From positions 1-64,000 of the forward strand of contig JAIOIK010000128.1 in NCBI GenBank assembly GCA_019912545.1: 64,000 nucleotides of DNA, written 5' to 3'. The position numbers were made by a program, and so were the translations under genes. The DNA is from Ignavibacteria bacterium. Lineage in GTDB: Bacteria > Bacteroidota > Ignavibacteria > Tepidaquicellales > OLB5. The notes below the pieces were generated by a model that ran no database searches, was not told where the DNA came from, and was given only the letters and a program-made list of their open reading frames with translations. Shown here piece by piece: positions 9,738 through 55,056 of the stretch (position 1 is the stretch's first letter; each line of letters starts with the position of its first letter).

Positions 9738-11015
9738 CTATTTTACAAGGATCATTTTTTTTGACTCAGTAAGATCACCCGAGTTAAGCTGATAATAATA
9801 AATTCCGCTTGAATAATTTGATGCATTCCAGTCAACTTCATAAGTGCCGGGGGCAAGATTTTCGTTTACAAGAGTTGTAACTTCTTTGCCCAGGAGATCG
9901 TAAATTGTAAGTTTGGAACGGTCACGACCGTTCACTACAGGTATTTGAAAGCGAAATTTTGTAGAAGGGTTGAAAGGATTTGGGTAATTTTGCGAAAGTG
10001 AAAATTTCTCGGGAATTGTATTTGAAATTAACTGAATACCCAATCCGCCAGTATATTTTGATATTCCGCCGTTGTCTCTTACAGCCCAAGTTCTTAATCC
10101 CCCGTAACCGTTAGTTGAAATGTGATTATAAGATCCAGAAGGCGCAGTGTACTGCTGTGTAAAATTACTTCCATTCGTTCCAGCATAAATAACATTTCCC
10201 TTTATGTACCAACAAATTGCAGTTGGGCCCCAGGAAACAGCTAAGCCTTTGATATCTCCACTTCCCGGAGTTGAAACCGGATTCCAATTTACACCCAAAT
10301 CAGTAGTTTTCGAAATATTCGTTCCGCCGGTAAGGCCATATCCAATATCTTCAACCAATAAAAAAGAAAAGCCTAATGAAATTGAATTGACTTCCGGAGT
10401 AGTAGATTGAGTGCTCCAGGTTGCACCTCCGGAATTTGAATAATATATTCGTGTATTATTTGTTCCAAACCAGAACTTTCCTTCAAGTGAATAAACCGAG
10501 TTATAGAACCCCGATTCATTTCCTGCCTGAACAAGATACAAACCAGTTGAATCCCAAGTAGTTCCATAATTTTCTGATTTATAAATAGTCCACCTCCCGC
10601 CAGCCGGAGAGCCTATAAACAAAACCGGGATGATATTGCCAAACCCGTAGACATTAATACCGGACTGGTTAAAAGTATTTTGCCATGATGCTCCGTTGTT
10701 AGAACTCATATAGATTACTGCCGAGCCACCTGCATTAATTCCTGATACCAGTACTCTGTTGGGGAGCATACTAAAAATGGCTTTCAAATTTGTGTTTGCC
10801 GGAATTCCAGAAGAAACATTTATCCAGTTAGTTCCTCCATTTGAAGTCCTAAGCACTGTCCCATTATCACCGCAAATCCAACCAAGATCTTCATTTGAAG
10901 AAGGCGAATGAACAGAATTTAATGAAACCGATACACCTGAGGTCTGTTCGATCCATTGAGAAAAAAGGGAAGTAACCTGAAATAAAATCACCAATAAAAG
11001 AATTGAGTTTTTCAT
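9738..11015 (-). CDS. YCF48/BNR-like propeller protein with T9SS type A sorting domain
   Basis: Repeated GTVLRTSNGGTNW-type motifs; C-terminal SLSQNYPNPFNPSTKF...SSGIYYYQLNSGDLTESKKMILVK. Confidence 0.85.
   Translation of the reverse strand: MKNSILLLVILFQVTSLFSQWIEQTSGVSVSLNSVHSPSSNEDLGWICGDNGTVLRTSNGGTNWINVSSGIPANTNLKAIFSMLPNRVLVSGINAGGSAVIYMSSNNGASWQNTFNQSGINVYGFGNIIPVLFIGSPAGGRWTIYKSENYGTTWDSTGLYLVQAGNESGFYNSVYSLEGKFWFGTNNTRIYYSNSGGATWSTQSTTPEVNSISLGFSFLLVEDIGYGLTGGTNISKTTDLGVNWNPVSTPGSGDIKGLAVSWGPTAICWYIKGNVIYAGTNGSNFTQQYTAPSGSYNHISTNGYGGLRTWAVRDNGGISKYTGGLGIQLISNTIPEKFSLSQNYPNPFNPSTKFRFQIPVVNGRDRSKLTIYDLLGKEVTTLVNENLAPGTYEVDWNASNYSSGIYYYQLNSGDLTESKKMILVK
9915..9939 (-). repeat. REP copy inside T9SS C-terminal domain (TGTAGTGAACGGTCGTGACCGTTCC)
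   Basis: 24/25 match to the RAYT-adjacent REP at 54438-54462; reads NGRDRS in frame. Confidence 0.9.
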
Positions 11016-11044: not shown

Positions 11045-12280
11045 TTACTTAATTAAAATCATTTTTCTGCTTCTGTATCTATCACCGTAATTTAATACAT
11101 AATGATAAATTCCGGCAGGTAATTCGGCAGCGTCCCATTCCACTTCATAAGTGCCGGGCGCAAGATTTTCGTTTACAAGTGTTATAATTTCTCTGCCCAG
11201 GAGATCGTAAATTGTAAGTTTGGAACGGTCACGACCATTCCCAATAGGTAATTGAAAGCGAATTTTTGTAGAAGGGTTAAACGGATTTGGGTAGTTTTGG
11301 GATAATGAGAAGTTCTCAGGAACTTCATTACCTACATTATGTATTCCAAGCGGAAAAGCTCTGACCCAAACTCCTCCATTAGTTGCACCGCTTAAAGCTG
11401 CAAACATATAATTCCCGCTTTTGACGATCTGGTTTGCGCTGAATGTCAAGTTATCGTTTATGAAAGTTACACCGCCATTGGTAGAATAGAACACTCCCCC
11501 GTTACCTGAAATATAAATATGACCGGAAAGATCACCGTCAGCAATCCCCCTGCCAATATAGCCAGTGGCGGCAGTTGTCCAGTTCAAACCGCCATTAGTG
11601 GATTTATCGACAGGTCCACCGGCTGTAGTTGAAACTGTAAACAAATCGTTTGGTGATTTCTGCAGTATGCCATAGATATTCTTGCCGGGATTCAGATTTG
11701 CTGAAAATGTAGCTCCATAATCGGTTGACCTGTAGAATCCGTTAGGACCGGCTGCTGCAGTAGTAACTCCAACATATACAATAGCAGAATTGTATTTATC
11801 TACAACAATTGAGATCACCTGGGCAGATGCGAGTCCTGTAAACGTAAAAGTTGCACCCGTATCAATACTACGATAGAATCCTCCTCCATTTGTGCCTACA
11901 TAAATGCGCCCTTTTTTTCCGCAGGCAACTGCCTGTGGATTCTGGCTGCCGAATGATGAAACAGGCATTGTAGTAAAATTCGCTCCATTGTTCGTGGATT
12001 TCAGGAGTCCGGCAGAAAAATTAGCCGCAAAAATATTGTTCATCGAGTCAACTGCAATGCTGAAAATCGTTTGTGAATTGCCTGTCGTAAGTTCTGACCA
12101 GTTAAATCCGGTATTGGTGGTTTTATACAATTTTGAAGAAGAGCCAAGTGAGCCGGCGTATATATATCCGTTATGATCTTTTGCAACAGACCATATCGAA
12201 ATACCATCTAAGGTTTGATTCCATTGAGAGTTTGAAACTGAAGAAACAAACAAGAGCAGGAATATTGAAAACTTCTTCAT
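11045..12280 (-). CDS. BNR/sortilin-like propeller protein with T9SS type A sorting domain
   Basis: Repeated YRSTDYGATF-type motifs; C-terminal SLSQNYPNPFNPSTKIRFQLP...SRKMILIK. Confidence 0.85.
   Translation of the reverse strand: MKKFSIFLLLFVSSVSNSQWNQTLDGISIWSVAKDHNGYIYAGSLGSSSKLYKTTNTGFNWSELTTGNSQTIFSIAVDSMNNIFAANFSAGLLKSTNNGANFTTMPVSSFGSQNPQAVACGKKGRIYVGTNGGGFYRSIDTGATFTFTGLASAQVISIVVDKYNSAIVYVGVTTAAAGPNGFYRSTDYGATFSANLNPGKNIYGILQKSPNDLFTVSTTAGGPVDKSTNGGLNWTTAATGYIGRGIADGDLSGHIYISGNGGVFYSTNGGVTFINDNLTFSANQIVKSGNYMFAALSGATNGGVWVRAFPLGIHNVGNEVPENFSLSQNYPNPFNPSTKIRFQLPIGNGRDRSKLTIYDLLGREIITLVNENLAPGTYEVEWDAAELPAGIYHYVLNYGDRYRSRKMILIK
11222..11246 (-). repeat. Partly decayed REP copy inside T9SS C-terminal domain (TATTGGGAATGGTCGTGACCGTTCC)
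   Basis: Same palindrome family as 54333-54357; reads GNGRDRS in frame. Confidence 0.85.
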
Positions 12281-16324: not shown

Positions 16325-16455
16325 TGTTTATTTAAGTTTATTTGATAAAATCTGTGCATTATGACTTTTTATAAGTTTGGTTAATTCTTAAATTTGATTT
16401 ATTAATGCAGTCTATTAATAATTTTTCCATCAAATTTTTCAAGAGTAATTACAGA

Positions 16456-18051
16456 ATGAAACTTATCACTACTACATTTATACTGTTTTTGAATACTTTA
16501 CTGCTGAACAATTGCATTTTTTCTCAATACGCTAACTTCAGGTTGTTCCCTTCGGGGTTTAACCAAATAGAGCCTTCAATATCAATTCATCCTTCAAATC
16601 CACAGATATTGTTTGCAAGCGCATACACAATTTCAGGCGGCACACGAAGTGAAGGGATATATGTTACAACCAATGGCGGATTGAACTGGACCGGCACTGA
16701 TGTCTGCAATGGCACCCCTACCCAGAATCACGGAGGAGACCCCGGTCCGATAATTGATAAGAACGGAATATTTATTTTGACTCACCTTGGCGGCATTCAA
16801 ACCGGAATGTTCTCTAATTTTTCAACTGATAATGGTACTAACTGGTCGCCAAACAAACAAATACTTATCGGCGATGTTGATAAAGGTTCACCAGGAACAG
16901 ATGCTGTAAATTCAAGCGCATATTACGGGAGAACATATTTAGTGTGGACTTATTTTGTTCCACCATACAGGATAGTACTTTCATATACTACAAACAGCGG
17001 GGCCGATTGGTCTCCAATCATAAACGTTAATAACGGAACCGGCAGCAACCGCTCATACGGACCATCAGTAATCGTCAGCCCTAACGGAACTGTTTATTCC
17101 ACCTGGGCATCTACAATTCCCAGCTCCCCATTCACTGAAGTATTTATTGGTTTTTCAAAATCAACAAATGGCGGAGTTAACTGGACGGCTAATGAAACTG
17201 CAATCCCCTGCAACGGAATACGAACAACCGGGCTTGCACCATGGACAATTCGCGCAAACAGTTTTCCTACTATAGATGTTGACAGGACAGGCGGCCCCAG
17301 ACACGGATGGATCTATATTGCAGTTTGCGATAAAAATATCGCACCCGCAGGAAGTGACCCCGATATTGTTTTGCACCGCTCAACAGATGAGGGTAACTCG
17401 TGGTCAGCAGGTGTTCGCGTTAATAATGACCCCATTAACAATGGCAGGAACCAGTTCTTCCCGGCTTTGAGAGTTGATGAAAACGGCGGAGTAAATATCA
17501 TTTATTATGATAACAGGAATTCAATTGATTCCGTTGACGTTTACTTATCGCGCTCTGATAACGGAGGAGCTTCCTTTTCAGACTACAGGGTAACGGATAC
17601 ACGGTTCAAACCAATTTCGGTATCCGGAGCGGGCGGAGGCAATATGGGCGATAATCTTGGAATAACTTCAGGCAACGGCAATCTTTACCCGGTGTGGATG
17701 AGCAATGTTTCGGGAATATTTCAGACATGGTCGGCAATAATAGATTATACCACAATAAGTATTCAGCAAATTGGCAATGAACTGCCGAAGGAATATTTGC
17801 TTAAACAGAATTACCCGAATCCATTTAATCCGGAGACTAAAATAGAATTCAGCATTCCCCAAAGTGCTCATACAGTGATAAGAGTATTTGATATAACCGG
17901 TAAACTAATAAGCACTCTCTCAGAGCAGGATTTGCCGGCAGGTACATTTTCTGTTACATGGAATGCAGTAGATATGCCTTCAGGTGTTTATCTGTACATG
18001 CTTGAAAGCGGCTCATTCAGATCGTCTAAAAAAATGATCTTGCTTAAATAA
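16456..18051 (+). CDS. Sialidase/BNR-repeat secreted protein with T9SS type A sorting domain
   Basis: Asp-box-like repeats (STDEGNSWS, SDNGGASF); LLKQNYPNPFNPETKIEFSIP...SSKKMILLK. ORF track starts at 16405; ATG at 16456 gives a signal peptide. Confidence 0.82.
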   Translation: MKLITTTFILFLNTLLLNNCIFSQYANFRLFPSGFNQIEPSISIHPSNPQILFASAYTISGGTRSEGIYVTTNGGLNWTGTDVCNGTPTQNHGGDPGPIIDKNGIFILTHLGGIQTGMFSNFSTDNGTNWSPNKQILIGDVDKGSPGTDAVNSSAYYGRTYLVWTYFVPPYRIVLSYTTNSGADWSPIINVNNGTGSNRSYGPSVIVSPNGTVYSTWASTIPSSPFTEVFIGFSKSTNGGVNWTANETAIPCNGIRTTGLAPWTIRANSFPTIDVDRTGGPRHGWIYIAVCDKNIAPAGSDPDIVLHRSTDEGNSWSAGVRVNNDPINNGRNQFFPALRVDENGGVNIIYYDNRNSIDSVDVYLSRSDNGGASFSDYRVTDTRFKPISVSGAGGGNMGDNLGITSGNGNLYPVWMSNVSGIFQTWSAIIDYTTISIQQIGNELPKEYLLKQNYPNPFNPETKIEFSIPQSAHTVIRVFDITGKLISTLSEQDLPAGTFSVTWNAVDMPSGVYLYMLESGSFRSSKKMILLK

Positions 18052-19681: not shown

Positions 19682-20977
19682 TTATTTGATGATTACCATT
19701 TTCTTTGAGTCAGAAAAATCACCTGAAGTGACTTTATATATGTATATCCCAGAAGAGAGCCCGAAATTTACAAACCTGAAAGTATTATCACCTGCAGGCC
19801 TGATTCCTTCGAAGTAAACTTTGACCTCTTTGCCAAGCAGGTCATAAATTGTGATCTTCACATGTCCCGGCTTTACCAAAAAATATTTTAAAACAGTAGA
19901 TGGATTAAACGGATTTGGATAATTCTGGCTAAGGCTGTTTCTATCAGGTAACTGTGTACCGGTAGGAGTTATTCCGATAACCGAAGAATTATATTTCAGG
20001 ATAGCTCCGTTAGACCCGAATCCCCATCCGCATGTTGGAGAGACAAATTGAGCAGCATATACAGAAGTGCTATCCGGCGCCTGGATTCCGATCCATTGTG
20101 TCCCGGTTTTACCGGAGTCAAGATTCAATCCCCATATCTGTGAAAAAGAAAGAGGTAGCCATAATTCGGCGGGTGTTCTGAATGCAAGGTTTTGCCCCTG
20201 CCCGGGTAAGCTTGTTGTATCATAAAGCCAAATGTTGCCTCCATCGTAACTATTAACAGTACTTGCTCCAAATTCAAGGTCACCTCCCGTACTGACAATT
20301 CTTGTTCCGGAAATGGGTTTTATATCAAAAAGCGGTTCCGGCCCGACACAAAAAGTAAACCAGTGCAAACCTGCATTTGTTGTTTTCCAGATAATACCTG
20401 CAATATCCATATGGCCGCCGCATGCAAATCCTGTCAGAGAGTTCAAAAACGAGATCTTCTTCTTAGGGAAAAGGTAAAGTACCGGGCAGTATGCTGAATC
20501 AACATAGGTCTCGAACCAACTGGTTCCTCCATTTGTAGTTTTATTTATGTTTCCCGAAAAACCGGTAATAAATCCATTCAACGAATCAATAAAAAATATA
20601 GTTGTATATACTTTTGCTGAATCAGGCAATCTGGAAACAACCCAGTTTATTCCACCGTTAGTAGTCTTTGTCAAAAGTGTTCCTTGTACAAAATAATCAT
20701 TAGAAAGCGCCCAGCCAAGCCTTCTGTTGAGGAAAAAAATATCCTCAATGGGATAGTTAAATATCCCTGAATTCTGGATAGTCCAGTTATTTCCGCCATT
20801 GGTGGTATTGATCACTGTACCGGAATCCCCTGCGGCCCAGCCGTACAATGTATCAACCAGTGAGCATTTCGTTAGCCATCTTGTTGTGGGAGAAGGGACT
20901 CTTAACCAGTAATCCTGAGATTTTAAAAATCCGGAAAAAACAATAAAAATCAATATTGTTAAAACAGATTTTTTCAT
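19682..20977 (-). CDS. YCF48-like propeller protein with T9SS type A sorting domain
   Basis: GWAAGDSGTVINTTNGGNNW repeats; SLSQNYPNPFNPSTVLKYFL...SDSKKMVIIK. Confidence 0.85.
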   Translation of the reverse strand: MKKSVLTILIFIVFSGFLKSQDYWLRVPSPTTRWLTKCSLVDTLYGWAAGDSGTVINTTNGGNNWTIQNSGIFNYPIEDIFFLNRRLGWALSNDYFVQGTLLTKTTNGGINWVVSRLPDSAKVYTTIFFIDSLNGFITGFSGNINKTTNGGTSWFETYVDSAYCPVLYLFPKKKISFLNSLTGFACGGHMDIAGIIWKTTNAGLHWFTFCVGPEPLFDIKPISGTRIVSTGGDLEFGASTVNSYDGGNIWLYDTTSLPGQGQNLAFRTPAELWLPLSFSQIWGLNLDSGKTGTQWIGIQAPDSTSVYAAQFVSPTCGWGFGSNGAILKYNSSVIGITPTGTQLPDRNSLSQNYPNPFNPSTVLKYFLVKPGHVKITIYDLLGKEVKVYFEGIRPAGDNTFRFVNFGLSSGIYIYKVTSGDFSDSKKMVIIK

Positions 20978-30275: not shown

Positions 30276-30299
30276 GTCAAAGGCATGCCTTTGACCTAC
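30276..30299 (-). repeat. Second GTAG-headed palindrome (GTAGGTCAAAGGCATGCCTTTGAC)
   Basis: Perfect 20-nt palindrome preceded by GTAG on the minus strand. Confidence 0.75.
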
Positions 30300-42063: not shown

Positions 42064-44565
42064 CTATTTCAAGAAAACCATTTTTTTGAAATCGGAGTAT
42101 TTATTATCGACGGTAAGTTTGTAGAAGTATATCCCGCTTGCTATGTTTTCAGCTTTGAAATCGACCTCATATACGCCCGGTTTCTGTATTGCATCAACAA
42201 GTACAGCAACCTGTCTTCCGGTAATATCAAATACATACATCTTCACGCTATGGGAAGAATTAGAAGTGAAAGGAATTGAATATTTGATCTTTGTTTCCGG
42301 GTTGAATGGATTGGGATAGTTCTGTGATAAGCTGAAACGGTCTGCAATCGTTGAAATCTGTGTGATACCAAAAACATCGTAATAAGATATACGCGCATTT
42401 GTTTCGACCTCTGCAAGTCCGGCTAGGTTCCACCCGTTTACAACTCCCGTATATGATTTAACAATAACCTTTAGTTCATCTATTTGCGGGAGACCATTTA
42501 TATCAATACTTGTGCCATCCTGACTTATAGGGCCGGTTGAAGTCACATGCGCCATTTCGTTGCCTTCAAAGTAACAGAATATTTCGCAGTCATTAACCTG
42601 GATATTTGTATTCGATAAAGGATTAGGGCGGATATTATAGAGAACTACTCTTCTTATATCTGTTGGCACGATCCATTTTAGAACTACGAACTCATTTGCA
42701 GTCCCGTTTGCTATCCAGTTAACGTGCATAGAATCGTTTCTGGCTTTGCGGTCAACAACTTTCGTGCCGGGGTACTGCGTAGAATCATTAATGAACTTAA
42801 ATGAACTCTGTGTCACATTTGCCGATGTTGAAGTATTGAAGAATGCAGCCTCTGATATTGTTGGAGGGACAGGGATATCAGTATGCCCTGCGTGACAGCC
42901 AACACACTTTGTACCGGTGCCCACCTGCCCGAAGTTCATGCCTATTACATGAGCCACCTGGCCTTTTGATCCAACCAAAACTTTTCCTGAACTATCCACA
43001 ACCTGCTCAAACATAGAAACATTTGCAGGCGCGTGTTCAAAAGCAATTTGTCCAGTGTGCGTGATAAGCTGAGTTGATAGAAAAAGTGGTGTATCAAGCC
43101 CAAGAGAGTCCATTCTTTGGAAATTAAGGAAGAACTTGATCTTTGGAAATCTTGATATCGGAGGAGCATCTTCCATAACTTCATCAACATCTCCGTTAAC
43201 GAACATATTAACGCAATCAAATCTAAACCCTCCATCCTGAAACCAGGTATTAGGGTCAGCAGTTGGTGGAAGATCACTAGGGAAGGCCAAAATAGCATCA
43301 ATCAATATGGGAGGAACTGGTTTTGGCAGAAGTACCTCTGCATTAAGCTCAAGCTTTCCTGCAATATCAAAATATGGCTGAAGCCCTGATCCGTTTATAT
43401 CAACAGTATATAGTGCATAATCCTGATTCTCAACTTGTGTTACATATGAGATAAGGATTTTTCCATTCGGCAATTCAACGGGATCGGTAGCATACGGCGG
43501 CTGCATTGTACCTGTTGAAGGCGGATTTGTAATATAAAGCTGCATTGAATTTGGGTTAACACCGGCAATATAGTTTGGATATCCCATCCCTTTATTGAAC
43601 CACCTGATACCTGAACTGCCTGTAGTATATACCATTGGCGAATGCGGTACAAAAACACTGAGCATCCTGCCATCATTCAGTATATAGGGTTTATAATTAT
43701 TTTGACCTGGCCGGTTATCTCCCGTGCCTGCGTACATAACAAGTCCTTCGCCGTCGGGAGTGATCTTTGCAGCAGACCAAACATTTGCAGCATCGTTTTT
43801 AACAGCTAGAGCAGAATCCCTTGTGAGTCCGCTGGAAGTAATAAGCGAAGGGTGATCAATATTCAGCCACCACCTGCTGTAAACTACCTTCCCGCTAACG
43901 GGGTCAATAGTGGGTTCATCTGCCCCATTCCGTTCTGTGGTAATACGATGCAGATTACTTCCTGTCGTATCAATTACAAACAGATTAGTCGCATTTTTTC
44001 CGCCATACTGGGATAGCGAAGGATAGCGGGTACTTGAAAAACATATTCGTCCATCGGGCAAATAGCAAGGATCAATATCATCATACTTAACAAATTTATA
44101 TGCGATCGTGCCAAACTGAGCCAGACTTATATTCCTGTTTGAATAAGTAACCTTCTTGAAACCGGTGCCGTCTGCTCTTATCTCGTAAAGTCTCCATGAG
44201 CTATCCCTGTGTTCTATTCCGGCAAATACTATCTTTGAGGCATTCCAATAGACATTCGGATCAGAAACATCAATCAGTGTTATTCCCGAAAAATTCATAG
44301 TACTGTCAACTAGCGTTCTAATTGTCGCATTAGCTTCCCTTACCAGAAGCCTGCCTCCAACAACTGCAGTCCTCGAAAACGGCCCCATTCCGGGAAGAAG
44401 ACCTGCCGGCGGATAATAAATGCTTCCGCCCTGAGTCATATTCCGGGATACAAAAACAATTGGATAAGTTTGTGATAAGAGCGCAGAATTTTGAAATATA
44501 AATAAAAAGCCCAATATCATTATTGATGCTGATACCGGGCGTAATGTTCTAAAGATCAAATTCAT
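42064..44565 (-). CDS. TolB/hydrazine-synthase-alpha-like propeller protein with CxxCH motif and T9SS sorting domain
   Basis: LPDGRICFSSTRYPSLSQYGG, KCVGCHAGHTDIP, SLSQNYPNPFNPETKIKYSIP...DFKKMVFLK. Confidence 0.72.
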   Translation of the reverse strand: MNLIFRTLRPVSASIMILGFLFIFQNSALLSQTYPIVFVSRNMTQGGSIYYPPAGLLPGMGPFSRTAVVGGRLLVREANATIRTLVDSTMNFSGITLIDVSDPNVYWNASKIVFAGIEHRDSSWRLYEIRADGTGFKKVTYSNRNISLAQFGTIAYKFVKYDDIDPCYLPDGRICFSSTRYPSLSQYGGKNATNLFVIDTTGSNLHRITTERNGADEPTIDPVSGKVVYSRWWLNIDHPSLITSSGLTRDSALAVKNDAANVWSAAKITPDGEGLVMYAGTGDNRPGQNNYKPYILNDGRMLSVFVPHSPMVYTTGSSGIRWFNKGMGYPNYIAGVNPNSMQLYITNPPSTGTMQPPYATDPVELPNGKILISYVTQVENQDYALYTVDINGSGLQPYFDIAGKLELNAEVLLPKPVPPILIDAILAFPSDLPPTADPNTWFQDGGFRFDCVNMFVNGDVDEVMEDAPPISRFPKIKFFLNFQRMDSLGLDTPLFLSTQLITHTGQIAFEHAPANVSMFEQVVDSSGKVLVGSKGQVAHVIGMNFGQVGTGTKCVGCHAGHTDIPVPPTISEAAFFNTSTSANVTQSSFKFINDSTQYPGTKVVDRKARNDSMHVNWIANGTANEFVVLKWIVPTDIRRVVLYNIRPNPLSNTNIQVNDCEIFCYFEGNEMAHVTSTGPISQDGTSIDINGLPQIDELKVIVKSYTGVVNGWNLAGLAEVETNARISYYDVFGITQISTIADRFSLSQNYPNPFNPETKIKYSIPFTSNSSHSVKMYVFDITGRQVAVLVDAIQKPGVYEVDFKAENIASGIYFYKLTVDNKYSDFKKMVFLK

Positions 44566-54332: not shown

Positions 54333-54357
54333 TGTAGGGAATGGTCGTGACCATTCC
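54333..54357 (+). repeat. REP copy 1 upstream of RAYT (TGTAGGGAATGGTCGTGACCATTCC)
   Basis: GTAG tetranucleotide plus palindrome, 20-nt core at 54338-54357. Confidence 0.92.
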
Positions 54358-54437: not shown

Positions 54438-54462
54438 TGTAGGGAACGGTCGTGACCGTTCC
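54438..54462 (+). repeat. REP copy 2 upstream of RAYT (TGTAGGGAACGGTCGTGACCGTTCC)
   Basis: Same orientation, 105 nt downstream of copy 1. Confidence 0.92.
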
Positions 54463-54495: not shown

Positions 54496-55056
54496 TTGCA
54501 GAATTCAACACATATTCCAAACAGAAAACGTAACCGATTAAAAGGATACGATTATTCAAATCCTGGTATTTATTTTATAACGATCTGTACCGATAATAGA
54601 GTTAATAGTTTTGGAACAATCGTCCAGAGTGAAATGATTCCGAACAATTCCGGCAAAATAGTTATGGATAAATGGATATGGCTAAGTGAACAATATTCAT
54701 ATGTTGTATTAGATCAATATATCACAATGCCCAATCATTTTCATGGAATATTGGCAATAGTAGATGGTGACAGGAACGGTCGCGACCGTTCCCTACAAAA
54801 GGTCAAATCTATTTCCTCTTTAATTGGAGCATTTAAGACAACTTCTTCTAAGGAGATTCATCTAAATTCAGATAAGGCGTTCAAATGGCAAAAGTCTTTC
54901 TACGATAGGATTATCCGAAATGAAGCGGAATTAAGCAATATTCAGAGGTACATTTTCTACAATCCATTAAGCTGGCAAAATGATATAGAGAATTCAAATA
55001 GATATAGCAAACATGTTAGAGAAAAATATTATGATGATATTATTCAGAATAAATAA
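54496..55056 (+). mobile_element. REP-associated tyrosine transposase (RAYT, Y1/HuH, IS200-like)
   Basis: RNRLKGYDYSNPGIYFITICT, MPNHFHG (HuH), WQKSFYDRIIRNEAELSNIQRYIFYNPLSW; TTG start. Confidence 0.93.
54773..54797 (-). repeat. REP copy inside the RAYT coding sequence (minus strand TGTAGGGAACGGTCGCGACCGTTCC)
   Basis: Perfect 20-nt palindrome plus GTAG on the minus strand; reads RNGRDRS. Confidence 0.92.

Follow-up and report, generated by a model that had tools for sequence, protein, structure and literature searches.

The loop between the second and third β-strands (β2-β3) of the type IX secretion system (T9SS) C-terminal sorting domain (CTD) has probably served, in one genus, as a safe harbour within coding sequence for repeated and independent insertions of REP palindromes of several families, a reading to which we give a probability of a little under 0.8. 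Copies are found in this one exposed loop, their reading frame is conserved, and they recur across families and across species. As we envisage the process, REPs of several families would insert repeatedly and independently into the β2-β3 hairpin loop, the resident RAYT being the likely mobiliser of the GTAG-type family called F1 here; an inserted copy would be kept only if the frame stayed open and the encoded turn (mostly a polar one) could be tolerated, a few of the original loop codons would be lost on or after insertion, and retention would reflect neutral tolerance rather than benefit.

REP copies in the window

The window (the whole stretch of DNA analysed, 64 kb in length) contains at 9738-11015, on the minus strand, a T9SS cargo gene of 425 aa whose product is beta-propeller-like (with weak BNR/YCF48 matches) and ends in a CTD. 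This tail matches both PF18962 (E=7e-9, 36.3 bits against a cut-off of 27) and TIGR04183 (E=7e-10, 38.8 bits against a cut-off of 23), and on these profiles, together with its Ig-like fold, it is assigned as a T9SS type A sorting domain, which at the C-terminus of this gene would be predicted to serve in export. Within it, positions 9915-9939 of the minus strand read TGTAGTGAACGGTCGTGACCGTTCC, which fits the F1 search pattern with 0 mismatches, is identical at 24 of 25 positions to the REP at 54438-54462 beside the RAYT, and encodes VVNGRDRS in frame (translation ...FQIPVVNGRDRSKLTIYDLLGKEV). The earlier note on this DNA had described this element as a REP in frame in a T9SS CTD, and correctly so; it was right also that the CTDs of the genes at 16405-18051, 19682-20977 and 42064-44565 do not contain the motif.

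The occurrence that it reported, though genuine, was incomplete, as two copies had been overlooked. One of these (11222-11246, minus strand) lies in frame in the CTD of the neighbouring T9SS cargo gene (411 aa, 11045-12280, minus strand), where it encodes IGNGRDRS (translation QLPIGNGRDRSKLTIYDLLGREI). The other (54773-54797, minus strand) lies in frame within the RAYT ORF, past the HUH motif, and translates as VDGDRNGRDRSLQK (RNGRDRSLQ). On the plus strand, one F1 REP (54438-54462) is found immediately upstream of the RAYT and a further one (54334-54357), a compensatory AATGGTC/GACCATT variant, also lies upstream of it. With up to 3 mismatches allowed, the F1 search pattern is matched 4 times in the window and not once in 100 dinucleotide shuffles. 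The earlier note spoke of six added residues; in fact the element at 9915-9939 codes for 8, and the net gain relative to REP-free CTDs is only 3, implying that part of the old loop was displaced. Across REP-bearing CTD loops the net gain is 3-6 residues, not 8.

The RAYT

The RAYT (TnpA-REP, 186 aa, 54496-55056, plus strand) has NHFH and WQ motifs and a Y motif near its C-terminus. It matches NF047646 (REP_Tyr_transpos) with E=7e-17, although its 61.6 bits fall below the curated cut-off of 80, and PF01797 with E=0.003. Motifs of subclass 2.4 are present (NHFH, WQKSFYD and YIFYNP, with the Tyr motif off by one residue), GTAG REPs flank the gene upstream (54334, 54438), and a cognate REP lies in frame inside it (54773); on its motifs and flanking REPs the protein is thus a predicted transposase of this subclass. 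RAYTs at loci L346-L348 show the same REP arrangement, with the identical F1 REP on the flanks of those at L347 and L348; a Flavobacterium homologue (L349) has no REP insert. In the same genome as the window, the RAYTs on contigs C76 and C18 also have the same loop occupied, by different GTAG REPs of their own. The nearest named relative of the window RAYT comes from Melioribacter sp. (50%), which suggests a host lineage in the Bacteroidota near Ignavibacteria. All told, its named relatives fall in Melioribacter, Flavobacterium and further Bacteroidetes bins, a distribution that speaks against a host in the Rickettsiales.

Mobilisation of GTAG families by RAYTs is plausible in view of the cognate flanking REPs. 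The RAYT-mobilised insertion put forward in the earlier note survives to the extent that the coding insert truly copies the repeat that flanks the RAYT; its movement would be deduced from those same cognate REPs.

Distribution of F1

A whole-genome pattern search found 14 copies of F1 (TGTAGGGAACGGTCRYGACCGTTCC) in the 3.66-Mb genome. The family has the marks of a GTAG REP, namely a GTAG foot, an imperfect palindrome and multiple dispersed copies, and its stem variants are compensatory (AATGGTC/GACCATT and CGCTC/GAGCG). Half of the copies (7/14) lie in one CTD loop, in both orientations: five in one orientation (window 9915, window 11222, and contigs C27, C62 and C177) and two, both on C160, in the other (RNGRDRSLQ). 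The non-CTD copies comprise one in the RAYT and six placed in no other credible ORF, 2 of them just upstream of the RAYT. Apart from CTDs and the RAYT (whose ORF, at 186 aa, is under the length limit set for credible ORFs), F1 was found in no credible ORF in the 1.64-Mb sample.

Within CTDs it is the polar reading frame of F1 that is used every time; in one orientation the remaining frames are interrupted by stops. Among the five forward CTD copies, four show CCT-GTAG. Strong target-site specificity was considered and rejected, because the bases preceding GTAG share only a T and no further consensus can be claimed.

Other families in the same loop

The sample comprised 172 CTDs from 1.64 Mb of stretches, and was supplemented by whole-genome pattern searches. 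The standard span of 34 residues, from NYPNPFNP to YDxxGxxV, was found in 142 of the 172 CTDs; many that exceed it have a palindrome at one shared position, and some longer loops have none, so that loop length must vary for other reasons too. In this genome the loop of other CTDs is occupied by at least three palindrome families besides F1. One, GATTCCCGCCTTCGCGGGAATGAC, codes for DSRLRGND and resembles the CGTC-type REPs of PMC3733652; another, F3, is a two-hairpin element (CCCCTCTCGAGAGGGGTGTCCG..CGGACGGGGTGTG) of the CCCCTC two-hairpin type; and F4 consists of GTCAAAGGCATGCCTTTGAC-like copies (GRHAFDT), several of them decayed. CTDs on C54, C185 and C142 contain diverged F4 copies, and one further copy lies in frame in a non-CTD ORF (C171:9345). 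The palindrome TCAAGCTTAAGCTTGA is a single CTD-loop case. Of the 11 copies of F3 in this genome, four lie in CTD loops (C70, C114, C171, C176); three of the others were read and lie outside CTDs, and four were judged by their non-CTD length alone.

Neither the CGTC-type nor the two-hairpin palindromes of CTD loops are tied to the window RAYT, and neither family has an assigned transposase. The single, isolated insertion linked only to the RAYT that the earlier note envisaged had to be replaced by a multi-family picture: seven CTDs contain F1, others contain unrelated palindromes and sister species have yet others, and the RAYT link is consequently one case of a wider, loop-specific build-up.

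Two observations concern palindromes elsewhere in this genome. The F4 palindrome at 30276-30298 of the window is intergenic and multi-copy in the genome, and the palindrome GCACAGACA..TGTCTGTGC has, in the 1.64-Mb sample, 36 copies outside credible ORFs and 0 in CTDs.

Structure of the loop

AlphaFold models of five window CTDs (mean pLDDT 87) predict a seven-stranded sandwich, in which strands 16-23 and 30-38 would be joined by a turn made of the REP residues 25-32, these residues also supplying the start of the latter strand. The position is that of the β2-β3 hairpin, directly after a conserved Ile-Pro and before the KLxIYD strand. Besides further Ig-like domains, the Foldseek matches include the T9SS CTDs 8glk and 8qb1 and that of PorU (6za2), though as the best matches are generic Ig-like domains the fold match is supportive only. 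According to PMC10994853, the fold of type A CTDs is specified by conserved motifs and the pocket of the translocon shows plasticity, findings that would be consistent with tolerance of changes in the loop.

Enrichment and reading frame

When hairpins of at least 8 paired bases were scanned for without any knowledge of the families, densities of 1.79/kb in CTD loops, 0.061/kb in CTDs outside the loop, 1.69/kb in noncoding DNA and 0.091/kb in other coding DNA were obtained. In this respect the CTD loop resembles intergenic DNA, its density being some 20-fold that of coding DNA elsewhere (Fisher P=1.5e-8); since ORFs were called mechanically and some of the ‘coding’ DNA is spurious, this contrast is conservative. 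For F3, pooling the classified copies from the same genus, element length was 2 mod 3 in 20 of 20 CTD copies as against 5 of 29 copies elsewhere (P=2e-9, a value obtained from copies that are not fully independent), the CTD copies having 26 or 32 nt between fixed motifs. These lengths are direct evidence for a reading-frame constraint on the CTD copies.

Relatives

Allowing at most 1 mismatch, F1 was found in 6 of the 197 genomes searched, its own genome included, and orthologues in sister species do not have NGRDRS; what the earlier note had named as telling against its proposal, NGRDRS being widespread in the absence of the REP, is thus not what is seen in the genomes examined. In a genome of the same genus (G010) F1 again lies in a CTD (IPSNVGNGRDRSVKVIIYD). 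The best matches of the window gene at 9738-11015 in same-genus genomes are about 50-58% identical over their full length, and at the same loop position its orthologues have F3, a GAGACGACCC..GGGTCGTCTC repeat (often GTAG-footed, and coding for ETTRRVVS) or CTCCCCCTGAAAGGGGGAG; in matches from more distant members of the genus the loop holds VAQTFLSV-like relics. Same-genus genomes contain F3 and the GAGACGACCC repeat in multiple copies, and in one complete, two-contig genome (G009) CTD loops account for 8 of the 19 F3 copies, each of the eight lying on the coding strand.

Outside the genus the picture is different. In outgroup G187 none of the 17 F1 copies examined lies in a CTD (P=0.001; there are 45 strand-counted F1 matches), and in outgroup G022 none of the 12 F3 copies examined does (P=0.01; 46 F3 matches), although CTDs are as numerous in these genomes and REPs more numerous. 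It follows that loop tolerance is insufficient by itself, and that having both REPs and CTDs is not enough; a permissive CTD lineage, or local spread within the genus, is likely to be needed as well. Ranking the CTDs of relatives by TIGR04183 proved uninformative, because insert-bearing CTDs score low.

VAQTFLSV-like relics are seen in CTD loops of relatives at L230, L238, L249 and L257, although the GCACAGACA..TGTCTGTGC palindrome has no CTD copy in the sample of the window's own genome. At L178 (G001:C357:5634) F1 occurs in an open frame just before a PHP-like N-terminus (FIHLHNHSHYSLLDA, DnaE-like), where it may lie upstream of the true start.

Probable recurrent insertion and its alternatives

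The most serious alternative is that there were few insertions (one or two), all ancient, which gene duplication and gene conversion then passed on from CTD to CTD, transposition into the loop being rare; this is possible, but we judge the odds to be well against it. Tandem pairs share the REP together with its flanks, as do the genes at 9738 and 11045, whose CTD regions are 87% identical over 200 nt, and pairs on C160. Gene conversion explains such pairs, so that independent events must be fewer than copies. REP-bearing CTDs are moreover moderately clustered, being somewhat more alike than chance would have it, and the pattern of REPs in the CTD loop is limited to this genus. However, F1 is present in opposite orientations and several unrelated families occur at one position; unlinked F1 carriers have CTD flanks that are 56-71% identical (the all-pairs median being 56%) despite nearly identical REPs; and nearest CTDs often differ in family, examples being C171 (F3) and C54 (F4) at 79%, the F1 and F2 pairs on C160 at 72-76% and the F3 and F4 pair on C185 at 72%. 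On CTD trees, built on a 67-residue alignment and with limited support, 8-10 changes between insert and none are needed, 11-13 changes of family state and at least five for F1. Pure CTD duplication, which covers the tandem pairs, was rejected as insufficient given these flank identities, family differences and tree changes. Among the orthologues compared, no clean pair of empty and filled orthologous loops was found.

If the inserts were adaptive, the REP-coded loop, or an mRNA hairpin some 180 nt before the stop codon, would tune how the CTD is recognised or cleaved, or how stable the mRNA is. That one loop of a sorting signal has retained inserts again and again in one genus would suit such a role, as would the strict keeping of frame and the polar F1 frame each time; but the peptides are wholly different from family to family (NGRDRS, DSRLRGND, LSRGVSEGRGV, VETTRRVVS), the 142 of 172 CTDs with the standard span show that most do without, and the stops in the other frames of one F1 orientation mean that the choice of frame is partly forced, so that we consider this unlikely. 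Of similarly low probability is the idea that the loop is a maintained landing site, in which families would replace one another and which would form a reservoir of RAYT-mobilised repeats that diversify exported proteins and re-seed the genome. That NGRDRS is an ordinary protein motif with a coincidental likeness to a REP might be suggested by the natural variation in length of CTD loops (that of the 42064 gene is FTSNSSHS), but nucleotide identity is near-exact, includes the GTAG foot and holds in both orientations; with no match in the shuffles, 14 copies in the genome and rarity among the 197 genomes, chance was discarded. An artefact of a fragmented draft (the genome is in 206 contigs) is just as improbable, the same pattern being present in the two-contig complete G009 and the flanks being distinct at every copy. 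Repeated independent insertion into a tolerant loop is therefore the reading that we prefer.

Comparison with known systems

In-frame REPs and REPs within RAYTs are known, and what is new would be a variant, the convergent coding hotspot. Intragenic GTAG and CGTC REPs have been described in various genes (PMC3733652) and, like Rickettsia palindromic elements (a likeness claimed only for the manner of working), they are short palindromes that enter protein genes without breaking the frame, the proposal being that in loops or linkers they are neutral. Their sites are scattered over unrelated proteins (recB in two Xanthomonas being the exception), whereas here one loop receives many families. In-frame REPs within tnpA-REP genes of subclass 2.4 have already been published (PMC6006769): in the parts of that paper available to us, the REPs are of a double-foot GTAG...CTAC form common in Bacteroidetes, and the cognate REP lies in frame between the HUH and Tyr motifs, as in the window RAYT; those parts report no CTD insertions, and here REPs lie also in genes for secreted proteins. 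E. coli and S. maltophilia REPtrons (PMC8266576) likewise have a GTAG foot by the hairpin and a RAYT flanked by REPs. Cleavage there takes place at CT next to GTAG REPs, and most forward CTD copies here follow CCT; E. coli REPs are mainly extragenic, and the present system is known from its sequence. No recurrent REP hotspot in one secretion-signal loop was found in the literature searched, which was mostly outside subscription journals.

REPs are regarded as extragenic, with few and scattered intragenic cases, and here one loop carries them at intergenic density, in a domain with well over 150 copies per genome. Mobile repeats have thereby become part of dozens of predicted secreted proteins in the genus, and NGRDRS, DSRLRGND and ETTRRVVS in CTDs are to be read as footprints of mobile DNA, not necessarily as functional motifs. 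The system offers a natural experiment in how mobile palindromes become protein and in what T9SS sorting signals tolerate, and its dense set of sites, some filled and others empty, among close relatives could be used to test whether RAYTs move REPs.

Palindromes were also seen at other coding sites. The last-hairpin loop, before the FTETKKM strand, contains them at L320 (G009:C2:1349588), L268 (G006) and L084 (G000:C160:27616), a reversed F3 element being among them. A large non-CTD protein contains F3 in frame at L260 (G002) and L270 (G010); both copies are followed by similar sequence (TAKxxYDSI), and may therefore represent one shared old insertion.
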